From NCBI GenBank assembly GCA_944372665.1, contig CALVZV010000004.1:1-51816 (forward strand): a DNA stretch of 51,816 nucleotides, given 5' to 3'. The position numbers were made by a program, and so were the translations under genes. This document shows, one piece after another, positions 5,813 through 34,123 of this stretch. Source of the DNA: an uncultured Clostridia bacterium. GTDB taxonomy: Bacteria; Bacillota; Clostridia; Christensenellales; DTU072. Below the pieces are notes generated by a model. The model was not told the DNA's origin, did no database searches, and saw only the letters and a list, made by a program, of their open reading frames with translations. Every line of letters begins with the position of its first letter. Within the stretch, counting starts at the first letter, position 1.

Positions 5813-5841
5813 TTGACTTTCGGTTATACGGATGCTATATT
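5813..5841 (+). promoter_or_regulatory. SigA-type promoter of the phage-like operon
   Basis: TTGACT (5813-5818), a 17-nt spacer and TATATT (5836-5841) give a near-consensus promoter with predicted start near 5848, immediately before the LexA box. A GGAGG-containing leader then leads to the ATG at 5892. Confidence 0.8.
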
Positions 5842-5848
5842 GAAAAAG

Positions 5849-5862
5849 CGAACAAATGTTCG
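5849..5862. promoter_or_regulatory. LexA/DinR (SOS) box overlapping the transcription start of the phage-like operon
   Basis: CGAACAAATGTTCG is a perfect dyad with arms CGAAC / GTTCG and a 4-nt centre. The Bacillus and Clostridia LexA consensus is CGAACNNNNGTTCG, and the internal AAAT also fits the RNRY preference. It begins 7 nt after the -10 hexamer, where bound LexA would block initiation. I infer DNA-damage induction of the operon. Confidence 0.8.
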
Positions 5863-5891
5863 TAAATTAGAAACGATAAGGAGGAAGACAG

Positions 5892-6398
5892 ATGCTTTCC
5901 GCCGGTTTGGCAGAAATCGTATTGACGGTATATCCTGAACTGGATAAGCTGGGGAAAATTTACCGCGCCAGGGCGGATAAATGTCTCAGTTTCGAATACA
6001 ACACCGAGGGGCGCGACGCGGCGCATATATTCGACGAATATTTTTCCGCTTCGGATATGTGCGAGAGTATTAAGCAATTCAAGCTGTGCATGGATACGGC
6101 GCTTAAAATCCTTTCCGAATCGGAACGCGAAGTGATATGCAGCGTTTATTTCAGAAAGGAAACTCTCGGTGCCGGCTGCAAACGGTTGGGTCTGGATGTT
6201 TCGCGATTCAGGTATCTGAGAGGCAAATGCCTTAAAAAGGTGCGCGCTTATATAGAGATCCTGGGCTTCGGCGAAGAAAGGATTTTAAACTGCTTCGACT
6301 CCGAGCCCGATTTTATATCGGCGGCGCGTGAAGTGGAAAAGCGCAAAAGCGCGGGAGCGCGTTTTAATACGGCGAAAAAAGCCATCAAGTCCGTATAA
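5892..6398 (+). CDS. Phage late-operon regulator-like protein with sigma-region-4-type HTH
   Basis: This 168-residue protein is the first gene of the SOS-controlled operon, preceded by AAGGAGGAAG. Residues about 75-125 (LSESEREVICSVYFRKETL, then GAGCKRLGLDVSRFRYLRGK) have the spacing of a sigma-70 region 4 or ArpU/RinA-like helix-turn-helix: a helix, a turn at the Gly-Leu, and a basic recognition helix ending in CLKKVRAYIE. Genes of this type commonly precede terminase genes in Firmicute phages and activate late transcription. I infer a transcription regulator of the packaging genes. The N-terminal 70 residues are not recognised and the C-terminus is a basic tail. It could instead be a structural HTH protein with no regulatory role. 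Confidence 0.55.
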   Translation: MLSAGLAEIVLTVYPELDKLGKIYRARADKCLSFEYNTEGRDAAHIFDEYFSASDMCESIKQFKLCMDTALKILSESEREVICSVYFRKETLGAGCKRLGLDVSRFRYLRGKCLKKVRAYIEILGFGEERILNCFDSEPDFISAAREVEKRKSAGARFNTAKKAIKSV

Positions 6399-6416
6399 AG
6401 GCGGCGGAGGAGAAGC

Positions 6417-6722
6417 ATGAAAAAAAACAAGCCGACCGACAAGGAAAGGGTGCTGAACGGACTGCAGCGCCGCGCCGAAGGGCTGGAAGCCGAAGAGCGC
6501 ATAGTTGAGTACGTGCTGGACGAGGACGGAACCAGGCGCGCCGTAAAGGAAAAGACGCAATATAAATATTATCCGCCCGACGTTGCTGCGGCCAAAGCGT
6601 GTCTGGAGCTTACCAAGACGGAGGACGCTTTTTCGGCACTGAGCGACGAAGATATCGAAAGGGAAAAGCTCAGGCTGTTGCGCGAGCTTGAAAATCTGTC
6701 CATAAACGCTCAGTCCTCGTAG
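6417..6722 (+). CDS. Putative terminase small subunit (partial-domain type)
   Basis: This 101-residue charged helical protein starts 18 nt after the regulator, behind GGCGGAGGAG. The phrase YYPPDVAAAKACLELTK followed by LSDEDIEREKLRLLRELENL resembles the C-terminal part of small terminase proteins of Clostridia phages, which often read PPD..A.K..LEL...Y.DLSDEELE. It lacks an obvious N-terminal DNA-binding HTH, which might be supplied by the preceding gene. Its place directly before the terminase block supports a role in DNA recognition or in loading the large terminase. The last 13 nt overlap, tail to tail, the minus-strand gene that follows. Confidence 0.5.
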   Translation: MKKNKPTDKERVLNGLQRRAEGLEAEERIVEYVLDEDGTRRAVKEKTQYKYYPPDVAAAKACLELTKTEDAFSALSDEDIEREKLRLLRELENLSINAQSS

Positions 6723-7453
6723 CGTTCGCGGCTGCGTTTACCGCCTTTGGAACGGAACAGCAGTATCACCACCGCCAGCGCGGGCACGGCAAGACCGACT
6801 ATGATTATTATTTTCAGTTCTTTGTCGTCCAGCGCGTCCAGAACGGTTTTGCCGTCGTCCCCGTCGTCTTCAGGTGCGGAGGTCGGGGCGTCGGCCGGCG
6901 CCTGTTCGGGGACGAAGGGTTTGATCTCGGGCGTCGGCATGGAAGTGCGGTCGGCGCGCAGATAACCGTAGAACTGTTCGTATTTGACATAGTACCATAC
7001 TGCGGTATCGGTGGGATACACGCCCAGGAAGGTTATAGCGGCGCTGACGGGAACTTGAGCGGTGTTTTCGGCGCTGAGATCGGGCGAGGATTTCAGATTT
7101 ATAGCGGTGAACTCCGCGTATTCCGCGGAGATGTTGATATCGCGCATGGTGCCCGCGGCGACAGTATGATATCCGACCGTGGAAACGGTGTTTTTGTCGA
7201 CCTTTCCCGAAACGCCGTTGAAAGTCACGTAATAAAAGCTGTCGTCCAGATTGTTTATTCTGGCGTAGTAAGTGTCGGGCAGCATGAACAGCCTGCTACC
7301 TTCGCTGCTCAGCAGCCATACTTCGCCGGATACCGCTATATGCGGAGTGTCCGCAGCAAACGCCGACAGACTCCCCGCAGCCGAAAGAGGAGCCGTCACG
7401 GCTAAGAATACGGATATAAGCGTTATTATAGGTAACGCTTTTGATACTTTCAT
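6710..7453 (-). CDS. Secreted, membrane-anchored SH3-like protein inserted in the phage-like operon
   Basis: This 247-residue protein is on the opposite strand to its phage neighbours. From the ATG at 7453 it begins with a signal peptide (MKVSKALPIITLISVFLAV, then LSAFAA). A beta-rich exported region follows with an SH3-like stretch (NLKSSPDLSAENTAQVPVSA to VWYYVKYEQFYGYLRAD). Next come a Pro/Ala/Asp-rich linker, a C-terminal membrane helix (IIIIVGLAVPALAVVILLF) and a basic tail. I prefer this start to the longer frame from 7540 because it puts the signal sequence at the N-terminus. A -10-like TATACT lies 7 nt before the ATG and there is no good ribosome site. Function is unknown; it resembles host envelope proteins more than phage proteins and may be a moron (cargo) gene. 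Confidence 0.65.
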   Translation of the reverse strand: MKVSKALPIITLISVFLAVTAPLSAAGSLSAFAADTPHIAVSGEVWLLSSEGSRLFMLPDTYYARINNLDDSFYYVTFNGVSGKVDKNTVSTVGYHTVAAGTMRDINISAEYAEFTAINLKSSPDLSAENTAQVPVSAAITFLGVYPTDTAVWYYVKYEQFYGYLRADRTSMPTPEIKPFVPEQAPADAPTSAPEDDGDDGKTVLDALDDKELKIIIIVGLAVPALAVVILLFRSKGGKRSRERYED

Positions 7454-7516
7454 ACAAACTAGTATATCCGCCGCAAACCGCGCTAAAACAAGTAATTTGT
7501 TTAAAAGGAGAATATT

Positions 7517-7858
7517 ATGTTGATTTCGAACGACGTCCACGACGTCGCTTTACGTCTTAAGGAAATAGATCCCGGTTACGAACTGCACTACGAAAGCTCC
7601 GATCGGAAATTCCGTCTCAAGAACGCTGAGGGCGATACGCTGATAGTTTTCCCATTCCGCAGTATCGACTGCAGAATGGTAGAGCATGCCAGGAAAACGC
7701 GCGTGGAAAGGCTGGAGGAGATAATAAAGGAGATAGATAAAGCCAATGCCGCCGCCGAGGAGAGCGCGATACGCCGTAAAGAATCGCTGGCTTCGGATTC
7801 GTTAAAGGAAGCCGCTTCAAGATACTATGCCGACAAAAACAGAAAGGGAACTCGTTGA
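7517..7858 (+). CDS. Small unknown protein upstream of the large terminase
   Basis: This 113-residue protein is preceded by AAAAGGAG. The first half looks like a small alpha/beta domain (YELHYESSDRKFRLKNAEGD). The second is a charged helix, likely a coiled coil (RVERLEEIIKEIDKANAAAE), and the C-terminus is basic. Its end overlaps the start of the terminase gene by 32 nt, so the two are probably translationally coupled. I do not recognise the family. Genes of this size before the large terminase are often packaging accessory or HNH-type proteins, but no HNH motif is visible. Confidence 0.6.
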   Translation: MLISNDVHDVALRLKEIDPGYELHYESSDRKFRLKNAEGDTLIVFPFRSIDCRMVEHARKTRVERLEEIIKEIDKANAAAEESAIRRKESLASDSLKEAASRYYADKNRKGTR

Positions 7859-9263
7859 AAGGATACTGCTGCTGGAAGCGGAACAGCTCAAAAGACGCGC
7901 CGAGAATAAATTGAGCTATTATAACACGGGCGAAAAAGTGCATCTGAAACAGTTGGCGTTCCACCGCGCGCCCAAGCGAAACCGCTGGGTATTCGGCGGC
8001 AACCGCAGCGGCAAGACGGAGTGCGGAGCCGTGGAAGCGGTCTGGATGCTGCGCGGCAATCACCCTTACCGCAAAAACAAGCCCGGCGTAAAAGGCTGGG
8101 CGGTCAGCGTGACCAAGGAGGTGCAGCGTGACGTCGCCCAGGCGAAGATCTTGTCGTATCTCAATCCGCAATGGATAGAGCGCATCACGATGAGCGAAGG
8201 CAGCAGGGACTTCCCCGAAGGCGGCATAATAGACTCGATCTACGTCAAAAACGTGTTCGGTTCTGTCAGCGCGCTGTCGTTCAAGTCCTGTCAGCAGGGA
8301 CGCGAGTGCTTTCAGGGCGCGTCGCTGGACTTCGTATGGTTCGACGAAGAACCGCCCGAGGACATTTACGAGGAATGCCGTATGCGCGTGCTGGACACAT
8401 CGGGCGACGTTTTCGCTACGATGACTCCGTTAAAAGGGCTGACCTGGGTGTACGACAAAATATACCTAAACCCGGCGTCCGACCCTGAAATATGGACTTC
8501 CAGCATGGAATGGGCGGACAACCCGTATCTGAGCGCGGAAGAAACAAAGCGCCTGTCTGCGGTCATGACCGCAGAGGAGCTGGAGGCGCGCCGTTACGGA
8601 CGGTTTCGCGCCGAATCCGGGCTTGTGTATCCCGAATTTGACGTTTCGGTACACGTGATCGAGCCTTTCGAGGTACCAAAGGAATGGCAGAGCGCCGTTT
8701 CGATAGACCCGGGACTCAAGAATCCTCTGTCGTGTCATTTTTACGCTCAGGATTATGACGGAGTCATATATGTGGTCGGGGAGCATTACCGCGCCGGCCT
8801 GGACGTGGGCACGCACGCCGCGGCGATAAAAAGTCTTGCCGACGAACTGGACTGGGTCAGACGCAGCGACGGCAGGCTGGAAGCGCTTATCGATTCGGCG
8901 GCGACTCAGCACACGCTGGCTTCGGTCAAATCGGTGGCGGAACTGTTTTTTGAAAACGGCATCGCCGTTAACGTAAACGTCAACAAGGATCTGTTTACGG
9001 GGATAAGCCGTGTGCGCAGGCTTTTTGCCGAACGGCCGCCCGCGATATACATATTCAATACCTGCGTCAACCTGATACGCGAGCTTAAAGGGTACTGGTG
9101 GGGCAAAGGCGACGTGCCCGTCAAGCGCGACGACCACGCGCTGGACGAACTCAGATATTACGTCATGACGCGTCCGGAAAAAAGCGTTCCCGCGCCGCGG
9201 CCGGGAAGGACTGCCGAATACAAAAACAAATTACTGCGTATGCACCGCATAGGCAGAAAATAA
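7827..9263 (+). CDS. Phage terminase large subunit (packaging ATPase and nuclease)
   Basis: This 478-residue protein is the motor that cuts concatemeric DNA and drives it into the prohead. Visible motifs are a Walker A GGNRSGKT (about residues 57-64), a Walker B VWFDEEPPED (about 170), and a coupling motif MTPLKGL. In the C-terminal RNase H-fold nuclease there are acidic residues in SIDPGLKN (about 292), LIDSAATQHT (about 355) and DDHALDELRYY (about 434). All expected catalytic acids are present, so the enzyme looks intact. Length is close to the family norm (P22 gp2 is 499). The start overlaps the preceding gene and its ribosome site is weak, consistent with coupling. Confidence 0.92.
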   Translation: MPTKTERELVERILLLEAEQLKRRAENKLSYYNTGEKVHLKQLAFHRAPKRNRWVFGGNRSGKTECGAVEAVWMLRGNHPYRKNKPGVKGWAVSVTKEVQRDVAQAKILSYLNPQWIERITMSEGSRDFPEGGIIDSIYVKNVFGSVSALSFKSCQQGRECFQGASLDFVWFDEEPPEDIYEECRMRVLDTSGDVFATMTPLKGLTWVYDKIYLNPASDPEIWTSSMEWADNPYLSAEETKRLSAVMTAEELEARRYGRFRAESGLVYPEFDVSVHVIEPFEVPKEWQSAVSIDPGLKNPLSCHFYAQDYDGVIYVVGEHYRAGLDVGTHAAAIKSLADELDWVRRSDGRLEALIDSAATQHTLASVKSVAELFFENGIAVNVNVNKDLFTGISRVRRLFAERPPAIYIFNTCVNLIRELKGYWWGKGDVPVKRDDHALDELRYYVMTRPEKSVPAPRPGRTAEYKNKLLRMHRIGRK

Positions 9264-9273
9264 AGGAGGAAAC

Positions 9274-11109
9274 ATGTCAAAAGAAGATCTTGCAACCGAA
9301 ATCCGAAACGACTTCGAGGCGCGCCGTGAGGCGCGCAGGCAGACGGAAGCCAAATGGAATCTTAACATGCGGTTCATGCTGGGATACCAGAATACGCTGA
9401 TCGACGCGCGCGGCGAACTGACCGAAGAAACTCCGCGTTTCGGTTGGGAGGGGCGCGAAGTGTATAACCATATCGCGCCGCTTATCGAAACCAGACTGGC
9501 GAAGTTTACGCGTATAAACTGCGCCGTCAACGTCAGACCCGCCGGAGCCGAGGAAAAGGACGTCAACGCCGCGCGCCTTTCGGGCAAAATCATTGACGCG
9601 ACCATGCGCGACAATTCCTTTACCGCTCTTTCGTCGGAAGCCAATTACTGGGCGGAACTTACCGGCACGTCGTTTTTCAAAGTCGTGTGGGACTCCGACG
9701 CGGGAGAAGGCGGCTCCGTACGGATAGCGGTATGTCCGCCTCAGGAGATTTTCCCCGACGATCCCGGCGCAAGCGACGTTTCGGCGTGCAGAAGCGTCAT
9801 TCACGCCAAAGTGTATCCCGTTGAAACCGTGTACGAGCTCTGGGGCGAGGAAGTCGAAAGCGAGGATGTAGACATATACGATTTCGAATATGCGGTCAGA
9901 CGTCTGTCGCGTACCGCCGACCGCGCAGGAGCCTCTCCGACAGGCTACGTATTGGTGCTGGAACGCTACGATGCGCCCTCCAAGGAACATCCCGACGGCG
10001 CGCTTAACATAGTCGCCGGCGGCAAGGTGCTGTATTCGGGAACGCTGCCTTACGTAAACGGAGCCAACGGCGCGCGTACGTTCCCGTTTATACGCCAGAC
10101 CGCGCTGAAAGTGCCCGCGTCGTTTTACGGAATGAGTCTGATAGAGCGGCTGATCCCCGTTCAGCGCGCATACAACGCCGTCAAGAACCGCAAGCACGAA
10201 TTCATGTCCAGGCTTGCGTCAGGCGTGTACGCCGTCGAAGACGGCAGCATAGACGTCGAAGCTCTGGAGGACGACGGACTCTATCCGGGGCGCGTGGTGG
10301 TCTACCGCCAGGGCGGCAGTCCGCCCGTAGCGATGAGCGCGGGAAGCGTTCCCGGGGAATTCCGCGACGAGGAAGACAGACTTTTGAACGAATTCAGGAA
10401 CATTTCGGGAATATCCAACGTCATAAACCTGTCGGGTACGGAGCTTAACACGGTCAGCGGTTACGCGCTGTCGCTGCTGATGGAACAGGAATATTCCAGG
10501 ATGAGCGTGACAACGGAATCCATACGCGGCGCGGTTAAAGAGGTCGCAAGGCATATCCTGAGGCTGTACAGGCAGTTTGCGGACAAAAAGCGGCTGATCA
10601 CCATAGGCGGCGCTTCGGGAGAAGTCGAGGCGGTCTGCTTTATGGGCAGCGACCTCGGAGGCGACGACGTAGTCACCGAAACCGATTCCGAGATGGTCGA
10701 GTCGCCCGCCACCAGAAAGAACATGGTGCTCGAACTGATGAGGTACGGGCTTTTGAACGACGAAAACGGCAAAATAACCAACCGAAACCGCGCCAAGATC
10801 ATCGAGATGCTCGGCTTCGGCAACTGGGAGGCCGCAAAAAGCGCCGACGAAGCGCACATCAAAAAAGCCGAACGCGAAAATCTGGGATTCGTAAAAGGAG
10901 AAACTGCCGATGTGTCCGAACTCGACGACCACGGACTGCACATAGAGGAACACAGTCTTTTCGCTGCTTCGGGCGACATTGGCGACAACAAACGCAGGCT
11001 TGCCGAAGAGCACGTCAGAAAACACAAGTTAATGCTCCGCCTCGAAAAAGAGGCGGCGGGCGTTACGCCTTTGGGGCAGAACGTCTATAACGAAATAAAG
11101 GAGGCTTAG
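9274..11109 (+). CDS. Phage portal protein (P22-like)
   Basis: This 611-residue protein lies immediately downstream of the large terminase, behind AAAGGAGG. It matches podovirus P22-type portals in opening pattern (a helical N-terminus with VYNHIAPLIETRLAK), in the central ASFYGMSLIERLIPVQRAYN and in the region SGYALSLLMEQEYSRMSV. Twelve copies should form the ring at one head vertex through which DNA passes, and the terminase docks on it. The C-terminal 120 residues are helical and charged, the place where P22 portal carries its barrel, though here shorter (P22 gp1 is 725 residues). No disruption is visible. Confidence 0.85.
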   Translation: MSKEDLATEIRNDFEARREARRQTEAKWNLNMRFMLGYQNTLIDARGELTEETPRFGWEGREVYNHIAPLIETRLAKFTRINCAVNVRPAGAEEKDVNAARLSGKIIDATMRDNSFTALSSEANYWAELTGTSFFKVVWDSDAGEGGSVRIAVCPPQEIFPDDPGASDVSACRSVIHAKVYPVETVYELWGEEVESEDVDIYDFEYAVRRLSRTADRAGASPTGYVLVLERYDAPSKEHPDGALNIVAGGKVLYSGTLPYVNGANGARTFPFIRQTALKVPASFYGMSLIERLIPVQRAYNAVKNRKHEFMSRLASGVYAVEDGSIDVEALEDDGLYPGRVVVYRQGGSPPVAMSAGSVPGEFRDEEDRLLNEFRNISGISNVINLSGTELNTVSGYALSLLMEQEYSRMSVTTESIRGAVKEVARHILRLYRQFADKKRLITIGGASGEVEAVCFMGSDLGGDDVVTETDSEMVESPATRKNMVLELMRYGLLNDENGKITNRNRAKIIEMLGFGNWEAAKSADEAHIKKAERENLGFVKGETADVSELDDHGLHIEEHSLFAASGDIGDNKRRLAEEHVRKHKLMLRLEKEAAGVTPLGQNVYNEIKEA

Positions 11110-11694
11110 ATGGAAAAAGAACAGAACGCGGAACAAGCCGTGACCCGTCCCGCGCCCGAGGGCGGCGACAAGACGGAAACGGTCTCTTACGGGAAATTCA
11201 GAACTTCGGACGAGCTCTTGAACGCCTACAATTCGCTGGAAGCGGAGTTTACCAGACGCTCACAGCGCATAAAGGAGTTGGAAGGAAAGCTCGAATCCGG
11301 ACTCATCGAGGAGGAGTGGAGCAAAAGGCTGGAGGAACTGCACAAAAAGTATCCCGTTTCCAGGAAACTCAACAAGGAACTGGGCGAATATCTTAAAGCC
11401 AACGAATCCCTCATAGGGGAAAAGGATTGCCTGGAAAAGGCGCTGCTCAACGTGCTGGCGGTAAAATCCGAATTCAGCTCCGACCCCGAGAAAACCGTCA
11501 AGTCTCCAAATCCGATCCCCGCGCCCGAAACGGATCCGGAACGGGAGCGGGAACGCTTTGCGCCGCCCGAAGCGCCGCCCAGGATTATGACCGTGTCGGG
11601 CAATACGCCCGCAGGTACGTTCCGTAAACCCGCGTCGGTCGCGGAAGCGGGCAGACTCGCGGCGGAGCATTTCAAAAAAATGAAAGGAGTTTGA
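11110..11694 (+). CDS. Putative capsid scaffolding protein
   Basis: This 194-residue acidic protein sits between portal and capsid, the usual place of the scaffold. It begins directly at the portal stop behind AAGGAGG. The phrase YGKFRTSDELLNAYNSLEAE then FTRRSQRIKELEGKL is a coiled-coil-forming segment common in proteins at this position in Clostridia phage clusters. A Pro-rich flexible middle follows (residues about 130-160), then a basic amphipathic C-terminal helix (AAEHFKKMKGV), which in scaffolds binds the coat protein. I infer an internal assembly scaffold; the family is not certain. Confidence 0.6.
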   Translation: MEKEQNAEQAVTRPAPEGGDKTETVSYGKFRTSDELLNAYNSLEAEFTRRSQRIKELEGKLESGLIEEEWSKRLEELHKKYPVSRKLNKELGEYLKANESLIGEKDCLEKALLNVLAVKSEFSSDPEKTVKSPNPIPAPETDPERERERFAPPEAPPRIMTVSGNTPAGTFRKPASVAEAGRLAAEHFKKMKGV

Positions 11695-11696
11695 TT

Positions 11697-12911
11697 ATGC
11701 TATCGGTCAACACTATCGACGCGGTACTGAAATCGTATTATCTGGACGCGATCTGCGCGTCTTTGAATACGGGAGTCAGTCCGCTTTACAGCGCAATCGA
11801 AAAATCTGCAGCCGAAATCTCGGGTAAAGACGCCATAGTGCCCACTCTTTACGGAGTGTGCGGCGGTCTGGGTTCCACCGACGAAACGGGCGACCTGCCG
11901 GATTCCGGCGAATGCCTGCGCTCCAGCTTCAACGTGCCGCTTAAAAATATCTACGGAGTCATCGATATTTCGGATAAGGCGCTTCGCGCTTCGCGCGACA
12001 ACGCTTCGGGCATAGTGGGGCTGTTGAACACCGAAATCCAGGCTATGGTGCGTTCGGCACAGTTCAACCTCAACCGTATGCTGTGGATGGACGGCTCGGG
12101 ACTTCTCGCAACGGTAAAATCGTTTTCCAATTCCATTCTTCCCAGTATCGTGGTGGATGACACCAGACACATAGCGGAAGGCATGAGGATCGACGTTTAC
12201 CGCTCCACTTCCGCAGTCATTACGGGACTCAGGGTTGCTGACGTCAACCACGAAACCAAGACGGTTTTTTTCCCTTACGGAGTCATGGGCAACGTTACTT
12301 TACAGACAGGCGACGTTTGCTACGTCCAGAAATCCAAAGGCAACGAGGTTAACGGTCTGCCGTATCTATTCGGTGCGGGAACGACGTATTTCGGCGTAAA
12401 CAAAGCCACTTCTCCGGGCATAAACCCCGTCGAGAAGAATCTGCAGGATGAGCTGACCGTGGACGCAATGCAGGAATTTTTCGATTCCGCTTCGCTCAGA
12501 GCCGGCATTCAGCCCGACATGATCGTATGCAGTATGAAAACGCGCCGCCAGTACCTCAAGCAGCTGGAGCTGAACCGCAGGAACATCGACTACCTCAACC
12601 TCGACGGCGGTTTCAAGACGCTGTCGTTCAACGGCATTCCCGTAGTGGGTGAACGCTTCGCGCCGGACGGCGAGATGTATTTTCTGAATACTTCCACGCT
12701 TAAACTCGTTCAGCTCAACGACTGGGAATGGCTGGAGGGCGAAAACGGTTCCATACTCAACCAGCTGGACAGAAAAGCAGTGTATACCGCGACTTTGGTC
12801 AAGTATGCCAACTTCGTGGCGGCGTATCCGCGTGGTCAGGGAAGGCTGAAAGGCATTCTCGACGAAACTTCTCAGTCCGCTACCGGCGGCAGCGGTACCG
12901 ACGGCACCTGA
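11697..12911 (+). CDS. Major capsid (coat) protein, HK97-fold type
   Basis: This 404-residue protein is placed right after the scaffold. The ATG at 11697 is preferred over the TTG at 11691 because AAAGGAG lies 7 nt upstream of it. Hallmarks are a long N-terminal helical arm, an A-domain-like region with PDMIVCSMKTRRQYLKQLEL, and the C-terminal strand pattern FNGIPVVGERFAPDGEMYFL then LKLVQLNDWEWL, typical of HK97-fold coat proteins (NGIPV..D......MYFLN). The tail is Ser/Gly/Thr-rich. Its length is near P22 coat (430). No insertion, stop or missing segment is seen. Confidence 0.85.
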   Translation: MLSVNTIDAVLKSYYLDAICASLNTGVSPLYSAIEKSAAEISGKDAIVPTLYGVCGGLGSTDETGDLPDSGECLRSSFNVPLKNIYGVIDISDKALRASRDNASGIVGLLNTEIQAMVRSAQFNLNRMLWMDGSGLLATVKSFSNSILPSIVVDDTRHIAEGMRIDVYRSTSAVITGLRVADVNHETKTVFFPYGVMGNVTLQTGDVCYVQKSKGNEVNGLPYLFGAGTTYFGVNKATSPGINPVEKNLQDELTVDAMQEFFDSASLRAGIQPDMIVCSMKTRRQYLKQLELNRRNIDYLNLDGGFKTLSFNGIPVVGERFAPDGEMYFLNTSTLKLVQLNDWEWLEGENGSILNQLDRKAVYTATLVKYANFVAAYPRGQGRLKGILDETSQSATGGSGTDGT

Positions 12912-12921
12912 TAATTTATGA

Positions 12922-12943
12922 CGGCGCGCCTTCGGGCGCGCCG
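12922..12943 (+). other. Strong UUCG hairpin between capsid and connector genes
   Basis: CGGCGCGCC and GGCGCGCCG form a perfect 9-bp G+C stem closed by the extra-stable C(UUCG)G tetraloop, 10 nt after the capsid stop and just before the AAAGGAGGG ribosome site of the next gene. There is no U-tract, so it is not a classical terminator. I infer an mRNA 3'-end stabiliser that lets capsid protein be made in excess over the minor proteins downstream. Confidence 0.6.
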
Positions 12944-12955
12944 AAAGGAGGGAAA

Positions 12956-13489
12956 ATGACATTAGCCGACGTTATTGAAAGAACGGCGTCGATAATAGGG
13001 GCGGAAGGAGACGTGACTACATATCCGACGCAGCTGCTGAATAAGCTCAAAGACTGCGTTTGCACGGTGTATGCGGAGCTGATAACCGAACATATACCGC
13101 TCAAAACCAAGGAAAAAGCCACCCTTTCGGGCAACAGGATATATTTCGAGGACCTTAACTTTTCCGTAAGAGAGATCCTCAAGATATCCTCGCCTGCAGG
13201 AAGACACCGTTTCGACGTGTTCGATAAGCACGTCGAGGTCGAGAACTGCCCCGGAGAAGCCGAGGTCGAATACCTGTATTATTTCGTTCCCGAAGAACTG
13301 ACCGACGAGCTGGTGCTGCCTCCGCAGTACTCGGTTTATATAATGGCGGTCGGCGCGGCAGCGGAATACTTTTACCGTTCCTCGCTCCTGGACGAAGCCA
13401 TGTTTTTCAGAAACCGTTTCGAGTCCGGTATAAACAATCTGTCCAGATCCGGCAGGATATTCGCGCTGCCTAAAAGGAGACTTCTATGA
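12956..13489 (+). CDS. Putative head-completion/connector protein (P22 gp4 position)
   Basis: This 177-residue protein starts at the ATG at 12956, 6 nt after AAAGGAGGG. It opens with a helix typical of head-tail connectors (LADVIERTASIIGAEGD), has a beta-rich middle (NRIYFEDLNFSVREILKIS), and a C-terminal helix pair (AVGAAAEYFYRSSLLDEAMF). P22 gp4, which binds the portal after packaging, is 166 residues long and lies at the same place. I infer the adaptor ring under the portal. It ends in a 4-nt ATGA overlap with the next gene. Confidence 0.55.
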   Translation: MTLADVIERTASIIGAEGDVTTYPTQLLNKLKDCVCTVYAELITEHIPLKTKEKATLSGNRIYFEDLNFSVREILKISSPAGRHRFDVFDKHVEVENCPGEAEVEYLYYFVPEELTDELVLPPQYSVYIMAVGAAAEYFYRSSLLDEAMFFRNRFESGINNLSRSGRIFALPKRRLL

Positions 13490-15006
13490 GGTATATGAGT
13501 AGCTTCAGAAACGAAAGACTTCCGCAAGCCACTATGCTGAAATACCGTATACCCGGTTTTTCAGCGATAGACGCGCGCGATACTACTGTGCCGAAATCGT
13601 TAGGAATATGTAGCTATGGCTACAATATCCGTTTTACGAACGGTTATTTGACGCATTCGTACGGGCTGAATACCGCGGAGTGGACCACCGCCAAAAGCAA
13701 CGTTTACGTAAAGGTGCCCGACCTGGTGGCGGAGGGCGAATCCATCTGCCGTATGCACGTGTTCAACGCAAAAGACGAAAACGGTGCGGAGCGGCCAGAG
13801 CTCATTGTGTTTTCCGACGTCGGCAGACTGTATTTCTGTCCGCTGACAGAGTCGTCCGAGTCGTATTTGTATTTTGCAGGTCTTACGGACGAACCGGGTG
13901 AGGTCTCTTTTCTGAATTACTATACCGGCGGAAAGGACACCGCGCTGATATATACCGAAAACCACGCTTATTCTTACGACGGCGAGCAGCTGGTCCGGCA
14001 CAGCGGCGTTTCGGGGCTCATCGGAGCGTGCATGCACTATGACAGGGTATTCGGGATTAAACCCGGCAACCGTGACACCATAGTTTTTTCGGCTTTGCTG
14101 GATCCGTTCGATTTTTCTGTCGAAGGGGGAGGAGGCGAGATCTCGCTGATGGACGAAGGCGGCAAAATTTTAAAACTCGTTTCTGTCAGAAACGCCGTTT
14201 ATATTTTCCGCGAAAACGCAGTGTACCGTCTTACAGCGTACGCCGATCCCACCAATTATACGGTGACAAGGCTTATCCGTCTGGACAAGCCCGTCCGTTC
14301 AAGGTCCGTGGCTTTCGATCTCGACAGAGTCTTTTTTGTTGCGGGCGAGAGTGTGTATTCGCTCTCGTCCGCGGGTATAGAGAAGATATACGAGGAGGTC
14401 ACGCCGTTAATAGCTTCCGCCGAAAACGCGGTAGGGGCGGTTTACGACGATACGTATTATCTGTCGTGCCGCATGTTTACCGAGGGCAGCGAGCAAATAG
14501 GCGACGAGGGCACCGAGGGCGCCGTCACTTTGAACAACGCCCTGTTCGGATTCGGTTTCGGCAAGGGCACCGTCGACATCATGCGAGGCGCGGATATTGC
14601 CGACTTCGCCGCCGTAGCGACCGACGAAGTGACGGCGCTTATAGTGTGTTACAACGGGGTGCGCGCGGCATTTCCCGGAATGGTCACCTCTGACGGGAAG
14701 TTTTACGGGCTGCCCTTCGTCAAGCTGTGGCGTTCGCACGAGATGAAACCGGGCGACGCCGAGGCGCTTAAAGCCGTCAGGCGCATTTACGTCAACACAC
14801 TGTATCCGGTTGACGTTACCGTCGAGTCCGAGTCGGGAAGCGCGGTAAAACATCTTACCGGAGGCGAAAAGATGTCTTTGGCGGTGGGCTTCAACACGGT
14901 CGGGGACGGGATAAGGCTGAGTTTGAGATCGGGTTCGCAGGGACTCAGAGTAGGCGAAGCCGTGCTTTATATAGCGCAATACGGGAGGTATATGACGGAT
15001 GACTGA
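13486..15006 (+). CDS. Putative propeller-like tail-hub/DNA-stabilisation protein (P22 gp10 position)
   Basis: This 506-residue beta-rich protein starts in an ATGA overlap with the connector gene, behind AAAGGAG. Repeated blade-like units contain aromatic-hydrophobic strands (ELIVFSDVGRLYFC, DTALIYTENHAYSYDGEQLV, RDTIVFSALLDPFDFSV, NAVYIFRENAVYRLTAY, DTYYLSCRMF), which suggests a beta-propeller. A C-terminal beta-sandwich-like part follows (VNTLYPVDVTVESES and later). P22 gp10 (472 residues, propeller fold) closes the portal channel at this position. The assignment rests on position, size and fold impression, not on a clear sequence signature. Confidence 0.5.
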   Translation: MRYMSSFRNERLPQATMLKYRIPGFSAIDARDTTVPKSLGICSYGYNIRFTNGYLTHSYGLNTAEWTTAKSNVYVKVPDLVAEGESICRMHVFNAKDENGAERPELIVFSDVGRLYFCPLTESSESYLYFAGLTDEPGEVSFLNYYTGGKDTALIYTENHAYSYDGEQLVRHSGVSGLIGACMHYDRVFGIKPGNRDTIVFSALLDPFDFSVEGGGGEISLMDEGGKILKLVSVRNAVYIFRENAVYRLTAYADPTNYTVTRLIRLDKPVRSRSVAFDLDRVFFVAGESVYSLSSAGIEKIYEEVTPLIASAENAVGAVYDDTYYLSCRMFTEGSEQIGDEGTEGAVTLNNALFGFGFGKGTVDIMRGADIADFAAVATDEVTALIVCYNGVRAAFPGMVTSDGKFYGLPFVKLWRSHEMKPGDAEALKAVRRIYVNTLYPVDVTVESESGSAVKHLTGGEKMSLAVGFNTVGDGIRLSLRSGSQGLRVGEAVLYIAQYGRYMTDD

Positions 15007-15106
15007 GTTGATGGAAAAACTCGAGGAAGCTATTTTGAGGCTGAACATGATAGAAAAAAAGCTGGACAAACTTACCGAAACGACCTCAGGAGGCGGCGAT
15101 GGCTGA
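14999..15106 (+). CDS. 35-residue coiled-coil peptide between hub and coiled-coil genes
   Basis: A short frame starts at the ATG at 14999, inside the last codons of the preceding gene and behind GGGAGG. It ends at the TGA at 15104-15106, overlapping the ATG (15099) of the next gene by 8 nt. It encodes MTELMEKLEEAILRLNMIEK and a second heptad stretch, ending TSGGGDG. The hydrophobic heptads are regular, and the overlaps on both sides suggest translational coupling. It may be a real small structural or assembly peptide, or only a re-initiation relay. Confidence 0.45.
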   Translation: MTELMEKLEEAILRLNMIEKKLDKLTETTSGGGDG

Positions 15107-16178
15107 TAATTTTAACGCTTCCGAGCACATGGATGAGGTAGAAAAGAAAAAGGACGAACTGCTTGAAAAGATCAAGGATGCCTATAAAAAGCTGGGAATT
15201 TACGGATCGGAGAGCGGTTCCGCGGACGAAAACGCCTCCGACGGCTACGAAGCGGGCGCCAGCAGGGAGCTTATCGAGGAACTGAAAACGCTGGAGGAGC
15301 TGTACCGCTACGAACAGGCAGGGATAGAGCCCGCAGGCGGCGTAGCGCTGCCCGAAACCCTGGGGGAAAAGCCGCTTGAATACACGCCGATGACCGACGC
15401 CGAGATTAGCGACGTCGCAAGAAAGGAGCTGAACGCCAAGTATGAGGAGCTGGAAAACGCAGCCGCCGAGAAATACGGCGAAGCAAAGTCCGAAATAAAG
15501 GACGAAATAGCTAAAAACCAGCTTAAAGAGCAGACCGAACTCGGTTCTTTGGCAGAAAAAGCCGAAAGCGAACAAAAAAGTCTGACGGAAAACATGGTCG
15601 TTCAGGGGCTTGTAAACAGCACTATATTCGATATCGGCAGCGAAAGCATACGCAAAAAGTATTCGACGGAGCACGAAAAGATCAGCGCGGAATACGATCT
15701 GAAATACAACTCGCTGCATAACGAACTTGCCGCCAGGCAGATCGAATACGAAAACGCGTTGGCGGAGTACAACCTTTCTTATGCAGCGGAGCTTTATTCC
15801 GAGGTCAAGCGTCTGCACGCCGAGGAAGAAAAAAGGCTGAAAGAGATCAACGAGTATAACCTCAACCTTGCAAAGCGCGAAGAGGAATACCGCGTAAAGC
15901 GGCAGCAGCTTCTGGAGGATATGTACCTGAGCCGCAGCGAAGCGATCCTTTCCGCAGCCAAAGCCGAGCAGGAATACGAAAGGCAGTACGGCGTTTCTTA
16001 CGACAAACAGACCGAATACGTGCGCCGCTACGAAACCGCCAAGAACTTTTATTCGCGCTACGACGCCGATCAGGCGGGCGCGATGATGGAGGAATCGGAA
16101 GGTTATCTCAGGCTGCTGCTGGGCGACGAGCAGTTTACCGCGCTTATGCGCTGGAATTATACGGAGAGGGGTCAATGA
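15099..16178 (+). CDS. Long coiled-coil protein (possible tail needle/plug or ejected protein)
   Basis: This 359-residue protein is almost wholly charged helix. A short N-terminal segment (EHMDEVEKKKDELLEKIKDA) is followed by an acidic Gly/Ser linker, then about 260 residues of near-continuous heptads (ELNAKYEELENAAAEKYGEA, ILSAAKAEQEYERQYGVSYD). The break at about 170-185 (NMVVQGLVNSTIFDIGSES) is uncharged and could be a membrane-active or hinge segment. In P22 the gene after gp10 is the trimeric coiled-coil needle gp26 (233 residues). By place and structure this may be its counterpart, or an internal ejection protein. The family is not recognised. It ends in an ATGA overlap with the next gene. 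Confidence 0.5.
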   Translation: MADNFNASEHMDEVEKKKDELLEKIKDAYKKLGIYGSESGSADENASDGYEAGASRELIEELKTLEELYRYEQAGIEPAGGVALPETLGEKPLEYTPMTDAEISDVARKELNAKYEELENAAAEKYGEAKSEIKDEIAKNQLKEQTELGSLAEKAESEQKSLTENMVVQGLVNSTIFDIGSESIRKKYSTEHEKISAEYDLKYNSLHNELAARQIEYENALAEYNLSYAAELYSEVKRLHAEEEKRLKEINEYNLNLAKREEEYRVKRQQLLEDMYLSRSEAILSAAKAEQEYERQYGVSYDKQTEYVRRYETAKNFYSRYDADQAGAMMEESEGYLRLLLGDEQFTALMRWNYTERGQ

Positions 16179-16366
16179 AGCTCAGAAAACTCAAAATAAG
16201 GCTAAAGTGCGACAACGGGATCTGTTTAAACGACGCCGAATACGCCGTGGAACGGAAGGGAACGCCCGCATGCAGGGAGTTAAGGCTGTGCAAAGAATGC
16301 CTTAAGGAACTGGCGGGTCTGTACGAAAGAGCCGAAAAGGAACGAAACGGGATCAAAAGGGGGTAA
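16175..16366 (+). CDS. Small cysteine-containing protein of the phage-like operon
   Basis: This 63-residue basic protein starts in a 4-nt ATGA overlap behind GGAGAGGGG. It has two Cys pairs (KCDNGIC, about residues 11-17, and CRELRLCKEC, about 33-42) that could bind one zinc ion. Proteins of this size between tail and lysis genes are often unannotated. No function can be assigned. Confidence 0.55.
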   Translation: MKLRKLKIRLKCDNGICLNDAEYAVERKGTPACRELRLCKECLKELAGLYERAEKERNGIKRG

Positions 16367-16373
16367 ACGGAAC

Positions 16374-16595
16374 ATGTGGGAACAAATCTGGGAAGCCGCA
16401 ATCAACTCGGGACTGTGGGCGATGCTGTTCGTGGCGCTGTTTTTTATACAGATACGCGACGGCAAAGCGCGCGAAACGAAATACCAGACGCTGATAAATT
16501 CTTTGGCGGAAAAACTGGAGATCGTCGAGCTGATAAAGGACGACATAGAGGAGATCAAACAGATCGTCAAAAATAACGATAAAAGCAACGAATAA
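16374..16595 (+). CDS. BhlA/UviB-family holin-like protein
   Basis: This 73-residue protein has a single N-terminal membrane segment (NSGLWAMLFVALFFIQI) followed by a charged helix (KYQTLINSLAEKLEIVELIK, then DDIEEIKQIV). This is the classical layout and wording of the BhlA/UviB holin family, with a short N-terminus, a G-(I/L)-WA-x-LFV motif and an EKL.IVE..K.D(V/I)EEIK tail. Family members act as phage holins or bacteriocin-release proteins. UviB of Clostridium perfringens is UV-inducible, which fits the LexA box of this operon. No endolysin gene accompanies it. It is the last gene before the terminator. Confidence 0.82.
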   Translation: MWEQIWEAAINSGLWAMLFVALFFIQIRDGKARETKYQTLINSLAEKLEIVELIKDDIEEIKQIVKNNDKSNE

Positions 16596-16623
16596 AAAAA
16601 GCGGGCGTTTGCCCGCTTTTTTT
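16594..16623. terminator. Strong bidirectional terminator closing the phage-like operon
   Basis: GCGGGC and GCCCGC form a stem around a GTTT loop, extended by A7 on the left and T7 on the right for 13 paired positions. It ends the holin gene on + and can also end the convergent membrane-protein gene on -, whose stop codon is at 16631. Confidence 0.92.
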
Positions 16624-33480: not shown

Positions 33481-33627
33481 CGGTTTTGCTTTCGGCAAAT
33501 GCGCTGAATGCGTTGTCGGGAAGCAGGATTTGTCTTTTCAGAACGTCTGTTCGTTTATTCCGTTTTTTTTAATCGATTTAGGGCTGCCGTTCCCGTAATT
33601 TTAGGTTTGTAAAGCTGAAATTAGAGC

Positions 33628-33688: not shown

Positions 33689-34123
33689 ATGGCTTACTGC
33701 TTTATCGGAAAATACAATCTGATGCTGGACGACAAATGCAGAATGCGTTTGCCCGCCAAACTGCGTCAATCCGTGGGCAGCGGCTACGTTATCCTTTACG
33801 GGGCGGATTCTCTAACCGTAATGCCCGCCGAAGATTTCGCGGCGCTTAACGAAAAATTCCGTCAGATACCTTTTTCCGACGTCGCTGCCAGAAGGGTGGT
33901 AGCCGACATAATGTCGTCGGCTGTCGAACCGGAGGAGGACGCGCAGGGCAGATTCGTTTTGCCCCAGCATTCCAGAGATTACGCCTCGATCGCGAAAAAC
34001 GTCGTCGTGATCGGCGCCGGAAGCGTCATCGAGATCTGGTCCGAAGAAAAGTACGCCGAGGCACACTCTGCCAAGGCAGGCTTCGAGGAAAGACTTTCGG
34101 CTTTGGGAAGGTATGGAATTTAA
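33689..34123 (+). CDS. mraZ: Transcriptional regulator MraZ
   Basis: This 144-residue protein contains two AbrB-like (SpoVT-type) repeats: GKYNLMLDDKCRMRLPAKLR (about 7-26) and EPEEDAQGRFVLPQHSRDYA (about 80-99). The D-x-[KQ]-x-R-x-x-[LV]-P pattern in both is the MraZ signature. MraZ forms a ring that binds direct repeats upstream of the dcw operon. It is first in that operon and overlaps rsmH by 11 nt. Confidence 0.95.
   Translation: MAYCFIGKYNLMLDDKCRMRLPAKLRQSVGSGYVILYGADSLTVMPAEDFAALNEKFRQIPFSDVAARRVVADIMSSAVEPEEDAQGRFVLPQHSRDYASIAKNVVVIGAGSVIEIWSEEKYAEAHSAKAGFEERLSALGRYGI

Follow-up and report, generated by a model that had tools for sequence, protein, structure and literature searches.

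The nearest described system to the gene cluster considered here is FpGTA from Faecalibacterium, likened here by description, which has been termed the second system of Gram-positive bacteria resembling a gene transfer agent (GTA) (Borodovich et al. 2026, PMC12946183). The cluster occupies positions 5813 to 16623 of the window, a 51,816-nucleotide stretch that is a complete 51.8-kb contig (CALVZV010000004.1) of the draft genome (1.64 Mb in 89 contigs) of an uncultured Clostridia bacterium from the order Christensenellales. Like this cluster, FpGTA comes from Clostridia, is podovirus-like, and holds an operon of ~10.5 kb that encodes TerL, portal, scaffold, coat, and a TerS with no evident DNA-binding domain; no replication genes are reported for it in the available text, and further genes lie at a second locus (PMC12946183). 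However, operon I of FpGTA is present in 12/12 Faecalibacterium genomes and absent from Gemmiger and Subdoligranulum (PMC12946183), whereas the cluster described here spans many families of its order, often with a LexA-type box, the regulator SigR4, and an antisense SH3 gene.

RcGTA and its relatives (Rhodogtaviriformidae) are also similar by description, both in their host-congruent vertical inheritance and in a TerS without the N-terminal helix-turn-helix (HTH), but RcGTA has a 49-nm tail, unlike the apparent short-tail module found here (PMC9662315, PMC6854486). SU10/P22 podoviruses share with the cluster the portal family, weaker matches of SU10 models to coat, adaptor, and nozzle, and a similar gene order. 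What sets the cluster apart from them is its short TerS, its vertical inheritance, and the lack of library matches of the operon proteins that would mark genes for replication, lysogeny, a spike, or a lysin.

What emerges is an operon for head building and packaging that has been domesticated and is inherited vertically. There is good reason to regard it as an ancient short-tailed head module of the SU10/P22 type, domesticated early in Christensenellales and kept in the chromosome as a GTA-like element. Formally recognised GTAs belong mainly to Alphaproteobacteria and Brachyspira, and an element that follows the host tree in this way would, if true, mean that packaging of DNA by domesticated phages is both old and widespread in gut Clostridia.

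Inheritance and selection across Christensenellales

The host tree was built from 28 ribosomal-operon proteins picked by eye (4170 columns, 60 genomes), after a first version had been found to hold antisense shadow open reading frames (ORFs), and the cluster tree from TerL, portal, and coat of the 56 among these genomes in which the cluster is present. The joint tree has 45 of 53 splits in common with the ribosomal tree (Mantel r 0.77), whereas 200 shuffles of the labels never gave more than two. All eight families with at least two members are monophyletic in both trees, and the two supported conflicts of the joint tree lie within families. Single-gene trees share 31/49 (TerL), 43/53 (portal), 38/53 (coat), and 36/50 (nozzle) splits with the ribosomal tree, with some families non-monophyletic. 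Host-congruent vertical inheritance, as seen here, is listed among the features of GTAs (PMC9662315).

The layout of the genes was compared in 81 loci, comprising 80 stretches from 79 genomes chosen among the matches, together with the window itself. Genes typically run in the order regulator, antisense SH3, TerL, TerS, zinc-ribbon, portal, scaffold, coat, g7517, adaptor, nozzle, DUF7934, holin, and second holin, although the gene set varies, some loci being without one or other gene, and TerS, the zinc-ribbon gene, and g7517 are placed differently in the genus of the window, where the second holin (phrog_297) was not found in the window itself. In f28/g38 (family/genus), the head locus holds no TerL, which lies elsewhere in the genome in 18 of the 19 f28 genomes examined. 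In the six g38 genomes listed with both on one contig, TerL and coat are 38–103 kb apart, a distance at which a small head could hardly hold both loci. The regulator, the antisense SH3 gene, and TerL stand together in the four split loci that were read, and G066 (f28, listed as 100% complete) has neither coat nor TerL. This joint loss of separate loci, together with the joint travel of regulator, SH3 gene, and TerL, is argued to reflect one function, and the split layout and the congruence with the ribosomal tree argue for domestication.

Nine of the ten recurrent flanking families tested are housekeeping families (one had no match): RNase J, O-methyltransferase, SSB, polysaccharide deacetylase, gyrase/topoisomerase A and B, U32 peptidase, MurG-type glycosyltransferase, and pseudouridine synthase. 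The initial annotation had suggested checking whether relatives carry the operon between the same host genes. Some of these flanks recur across families and others vary even within the genus of the window; therefore, the operon has kept its site in some cases and changed it in others. Among the matches listed, many of them on draft contigs, the nearest full-length integrase on a contig with a cluster is ~34 kb away. Full endogenisation, often at more than one locus, is described for GTAs (PMC9662315), and the cluster shows it in its housekeeping flanks, in this distance to the nearest listed integrase, and in its two loci in f28/g38. A 113-residue integrase fragment lies ~2.6 kb upstream of TerL in one locus (L080; G227:C2:123992-124186), the only one near a cluster among the matches listed.

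The ratio of nonsynonymous to synonymous substitution rates (dN/dS) was estimated by NG86 in the 12 closest pairs, seven of which fall within one genus, repeat members of genus g71 or g109, and are hence not independent, and several of which have dS >1, where the method saturates. Values range over all genes from 0.02 to 0.47, far below 1, and are lowest in TerL (0.03–0.12), portal (0.02–0.24), and coat (0.04–0.19). Frames were then scored with profiles built from the same 81 loci, the loci not counted as intact being cut by contig ends or without a match in the stretch unless given as short. TerL is intact in 66, portal in 77, coat in 78, TerS in 75, and adaptor in 77, with none broken in any of them; scaffold in 72 (four short), nozzle in 72 (two short), and DUF7934 in 59 (two short); and regulator in 46, holin in 46, and the second holin in 32. 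Coat is likewise intact in 114 of 130 further loci (50 viral contigs and 80 named genomes, some from the same genomes), with none broken, and nozzle in 87 with four short. Some coat matches from the order and two TerL matches were flagged with internal stops; in the flagged coat of G012 and TerL of G170, the frame is whole and the match overran its natural end.

TerL was found in 12 of the 13 genomes of the genus and in 28 of the 40 of the family, one of them (G035) by a 33% match on a short contig. Within the order, 173 of the 297 genomes sampled and 63 of 125 genera carry coat—as a single match in 165 of the 173—and so do 149 of the 247 good-quality genomes, a few matches being fragments. 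A coat profile matches 26 of 391 genomes drawn from the class, and 12 of these 26 do not belong to the order. The absence of coat from G003, nested in the genus, and from G055 (f17) looks like loss; a gene from the flank of the sister genome G005 was not found in G003, and the f2 and f31 genomes without coat fall inside the midpoint-rooted tree, the root of which is uncertain. One locus (L110, G127) holds a tandem pair of coat genes within one cluster.

A collection of 50,697 phage records gave 1031 matches to TerL, none as high as 60%, with 28–33% identity in the 20 that were listed. Viral contigs gave no match to the single coat sequence. The best 80 of 247 relatives from a TerL profile search of viral contigs include 49 (L148-L195, L197) with TerL 53–64% identical and neighbours from the cluster, some keeping its housekeeping flanks and one being the possible prophage L180; the remainder comprise L196 at 43% and others at 38% or less. 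The best 80 of 566 relatives in named genomes include four Candidatus Borkfalkia, which NCBI assigns to Christensenellales, one Candidatus Fimimonas, one Candidatus Heteroclostridium, and one 'Christensenellaceae', with no Faecalibacterium-titled record among the 80. Some of the named contigs have the same length as genomes in the order sample, and in two such cases (L296 with G187, L263 with G213) the aligned parts of portal and coat show no difference. The Corallococcus label of one metagenome-assembled genome was taken as wrong because its portal and coat are closest to those of family f20.

The initial annotation had proposed a GTA or a domesticated capsid system, and had named an integrase just outside the cluster, its presence in a single strain, frequent pseudogenes, and dN/dS near 1 as signs of an ordinary or dying prophage. 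None of these signs appeared where they could be looked for—the operon is not confined to one strain, broken frames are rare in the 81 and the 130 loci, and no full-length integrase is listed close by—and the proposal is supported.

Parts and control sites of the cluster

The window carries the following features.

5813..5841, + strand: sigma-70-type promoter (-35 TTGACT at 5813, 17-nt spacing, -10 TATATT)
5849..5862, no strand assigned: LexA-type SOS box CGAACAAATGTTCG, just 3' of the -10
5892..6398, + strand: SigR4, sigma-70 region-4-like regulator of 168 residues (PF04545, Sigma70_r4, 7e-4, below the Pfam cut-off; phrog_36, 1e-4)
6417..6722, + strand: TerS-like protein of 101 residues, apparently lacking the N-terminal portion that phage TerS has
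6710..7453, - strand: antisense secreted SH3-like protein (SH3_3, 1e-4, below cut-off; C-terminal hydrophobic anchor read from the sequence)
7517..7858, + strand: g7517, small cluster protein of 113 residues, conserved across loci
7827..9263, + strand: large terminase TerL (Terminase_6N/6C above the Pfam cut-offs)
9274..11109, + strand: portal of P22/SU10 type (P22_portal and SU10_portal above the Pfam cut-offs)
11110..11694, + strand: scaffold-like protein, assigned by position (weak coiled-coil-type matches; conserved in the order)
11697..12911, + strand: major coat protein (phrog_14242, major head, 2e-40; SU10_MCP 0.003, below cut-off)
12956..13489, + strand: head-tail adaptor, SU10-adaptor-like (PF24175, SU10_adaptor, 8e-4, below cut-off)
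13486..15006, + strand: nozzle/hub (phrog_3287 virion structural protein; PDB 7z47_G, 1e-3)
14999..15106, + strand: coiled-coil ORF of 35 residues at a variable, possibly fibre, position (read from the sequence)
15099..16178, + strand: DUF7934 coiled-coil protein (PF25588, 2e-36)
16175..16366, + strand: zinc-ribbon-like protein of 63 residues (sole match Zn_ribbon_PaaD, 0.064)
16374..16595, + strand: BhlA/UviB-type holin (PF10960, BhlA, 1e-16)
16601..16623, + strand: intrinsic terminator (stem 16601-16616, then a T run)

TerL, portal, coat, and holin are firmly assigned from their family matches, and derivation of such proteins from Caudoviricetes is a further feature of GTAs that is found here (PMC9662315). 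For the adaptor, two of 26 family members match SU10_adaptor at 0.01; phrog_3287 is matched by 34 of the 50 aligned nozzle members. Among solved structures, neither the profiles of coat, DUF7934, and adaptor nor the single portal sequence found a clear counterpart. The match of the nozzle to PDB 7z47_G, which we take to be a tail chain of phage SU10, extends across 33 profile positions. The DUF7934 protein may act as a tail needle or in ejection. In some families, genes of 300–680 residues stand between nozzle and DUF7934 (L117, L118, L119, L096, L092, L121); they are possible fibres or receptor-binding proteins, and the four such genes tested (L119, L096, L118, L101) had no meaningful library match.

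Most of what the initial annotation had read in the window stands: the promoter, LexA-type box, and terminator that frame 5813-16623 are confirmed by position and sequence, and so are the holin and the absence of an integrase (no match to PF00589 on the contig, the four listed for the genome being on other contigs). The 11 cluster frames examined contain zero internal stops, and codon use is as host-like as had been judged by eye, with a correlation of 0.98 between the pooled cluster genes and 26 host genes of the window (0.67–0.95 for single genes) and GC contents of 0.542 and 0.535, respectively. Other claims need to be modified. The gene content of the P22-like head set was recognised correctly, but portal, coat, and adaptor resemble SU10 in addition to P22; the protein called a hub rather resembles the nozzle of a short tail; and the list of parts gains the ORF at 14999-15106, a site that holds larger, variable genes in some other families. 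The promoter and terminator do frame the cluster, but the antisense SH3-like gene, which had gone unmentioned, interrupts it and, therefore, it is not one uninterrupted operon. This gene is intact in 63 of the 81 loci (18 without a match), adjoins TerL in many families, and travels with it in f28/g38; its product could be a surface receptor, a wall anchor, or a lysis control protein. Among the other small genes, g7517 is intact in 73 loci (no match in eight) and the zinc-ribbon-like family in 53 (no match in 28). On either side, the cluster is bounded by a ZIP transporter gene and a divergent membrane-protein gene, the latter followed by a gene that is presumably NadD.

The initial annotation had also considered a satellite that uses the tail of another phage. 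In this reading, the cluster would be an island resembling phage-inducible chromosomal islands (PICIs) that borrows the tail and lysis genes of a helper phage. The minimal gene set and the capsid genes of its own would suit such a capsid-forming element. However, neither an integrase nor a primase is recognised in the operon by the family-library matches, the cluster is inherited vertically through many families instead of moving horizontally, and it has its own promoter with an SOS-type box. Because no mobility gene is seen and inheritance is vertical, this explanation is not supported and is considered highly improbable.

The motifs of TerL, which we take to be those of its motor and nuclease, are intact, as noted before, and fall in columns that are invariant among 21 aligned sequences, including that of the window. 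They bear on a different explanation, in which the domesticated capsid has another job, killing relatives or carrying protein, with inert packaged DNA, as described for PBSX. Although this precedent exists (discussed in the available text of PMC12946183), no receptor-binding or lysin gene is recognised, and one other family holds a coat with only a scaffold-like neighbour among host genes (L139), such a role is unlikely, since the motor and nuclease columns of TerL are invariant, TerL is strongly constrained, and it is retained even where separated from the head genes.

The short TerS may bear on what is packaged. The copies tested have 86–101 residues, and four from the order align solely to residues 194–262 of the 319-residue TerS of phrog_309 (E 3e-7 to 0.02); for the copy of the window, the sole match is a weak one to a different TerS family (phrog_9452, 0.057). 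The prophage-like relatives L134 and L137 hold a full-length Terminase_2 TerS. Judging from the layout of phage TerS in PMC6854486, the missing segment would be the DNA-binding end; the lack of the N-terminal HTH in TerS of RcGTA has been proposed to explain random packaging (PMC6854486), and TerS of FpGTA shows no obvious DNA-binding domain (PMC12946183).

Where the upstream DNA was long enough, the stretch between -250 and +60 relative to the regulator start was scanned for exact GAAC-N4-GTTC boxes, which occur in 27 of 42 loci, including 11/11 from family f1, compared with 252 of 16,200 random placements. Of 46 genomes, 34 encode a LexA DNA-binding domain at E 0.001 and 29 do so above the cut-off, the genome of the window included. 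A hand-sorted table of LexA gene against box, made at a chosen cut-off of E 1e-8 for the 31 genomes common to both lists, gives 16/7 against 2/6 (one-sided Fisher p 0.037), weakly supporting a link between them. SigR4 has a relative in L296 that matches Sigma70_r4_2 at 3e-10. Further exact boxes at positions 33541, ~150 bp upstream of ORF 33689-34123, and 21530 of the window may mark other SOS genes.

Proposed function and evidence against it

Three of the six features of GTAs given in PMC9662315 are found in the cluster, which is therefore called most likely GTA-like in its working, although it is not filed as a proven GTA. The other three features are the packaging of mainly random host DNA, for which the short TerS and the packaging reported for Christensenellaceae are circumstantial signs, a genome that exceeds the capacity of the head, and the delivery of DNA to further cells. 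Following this model, DNA damage would relieve LexA at the box over the promoter, and SigR4, a putative activator resembling sigma region 4, would be expressed together with the head operon. Coat, scaffold, and portal would then build a small prohead, into which TerL and a TerS without the DNA-recognition end would package whatever host DNA is met. Adaptor and nozzle would close the head with a short tail, and the holin, with a lysin encoded elsewhere, would free the particles from a few cells. Particle formation, the action of LexA, random packaging, release, and delivery are what we infer.

A prophage, whether decaying, defective, or intact and tracking its hosts by chance, would be expected to show integrase and replication genes alongside the head genes; no PF00589 match lies on the contig, and no replication gene is recognised among the library matches of the operon proteins. 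Homologues of TerL, portal, scaffold, coat, and g7517 do stand in the same order in L134, L137, and, less certainly, L180. L134 is a true prophage (TerL 1e-122) that differs in encoding a polyvalent protein of 1628 residues along with a DnaB helicase and a replication initiator, and L180 is a possible one, although its presumed replication gene has no family match. A few split frames of TerL and portal in the 130 further loci, as well as the integrase fragment in G227, would also agree with a prophage. On the other hand, trees congruent with the host, the unbroken TerL, portal, and coat of the 81 loci, the lack of a full-length integrase within ~34 kb among the matches listed, and the split layout in f28/g38 leave this origin with very little probability.

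Several observations weigh against the GTA-like reading preferred here. The operon holds no receptor-binding protein or lysin recognised by library matches. Coat has no match in 124 of the 297 genomes of the order. The trees of adaptor (19/44 splits), scaffold (27/51), and TerS (26/48) are less congruent with that of the hosts. The box is missing from 15 of the 42 loci (0/5 in f32) and from 33 of 69 named or viral-contig loci (present in 36). Among the 130 further loci, two TerL frames are short or split (L197, L286; 108 intact), three of portal (L161, L164, L196; 115 intact), and one TerS is short (115 intact), counts in which assembly error and decay are not distinguished. L180, a viral contig from an isolate genome, has a TerL 56% identical to that of the window and a TerS that extends into the segment missing from those of the order; it may, therefore, be a phage nearly as close as the other families of the order.

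In favour of the GTA-like reading, GTA-like packaging of Christensenellaceae DNA has been described in 3/25 events, with the genera HGM11616 and QANA01 as possible carriers of the cluster (PMC12946183). For these packaging events, no gene cluster is named in the available text of PMC12946183, the only paper found on Christensenellales and gene transfer agents in a literature search with preprints outside its scope. The cluster described here is a candidate for the events seen in faecal viromes. On balance, the evidence leans towards an SOS-linked family of short-tailed GTAs, among the oldest of them, that predates the split of the Christensenellales families, is inherited in the chromosome, has been fragmented in at least one lineage, has a possible relative in another order of the class (f76), and is the genetic basis for the packaged Christensenellaceae DNA of gut viromes. 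TerL, coat, the short TerS, SigR4, and the SH3 gene would serve as markers for tests in culture.

Head loci in other families

Outside the order, loci of family f76 (L130, L131, L133, L136, considered together with L372 and L373) hold scaffold, coat, and g7517, each recognised by profile, and after them genes compatible with adaptor and nozzle, these two being supported by profile in L133 only. Neither portal nor TerL is found in these head stretches, which lie beside genes that we take to be serC and serA. TerL is on a separate contig near a SigR4-like gene in G375 and G426, and in L373 an exact LexA-type box precedes TerL by ~340 bp. These loci are possibly a second, dispersed GTA lineage.

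In f107, host genes surround a coat gene and a gene that is scaffold-like by position (L139:10011-12050). Profiles of portal and terminase have no match in the 20 kb, and TerL has only a weak one elsewhere in the genome (1e-12), so that the locus may encode a motorless capsid.

A related head cluster with host-gene flanks is present in f49 (L135), together with a short ORF for a putative holin and an amidase with an S-layer-homology domain. Its TerL is weakly similar in the locus search (2e-7), with no match in the genome search, and the locus is a candidate for either another GTA-like element or a prophage.

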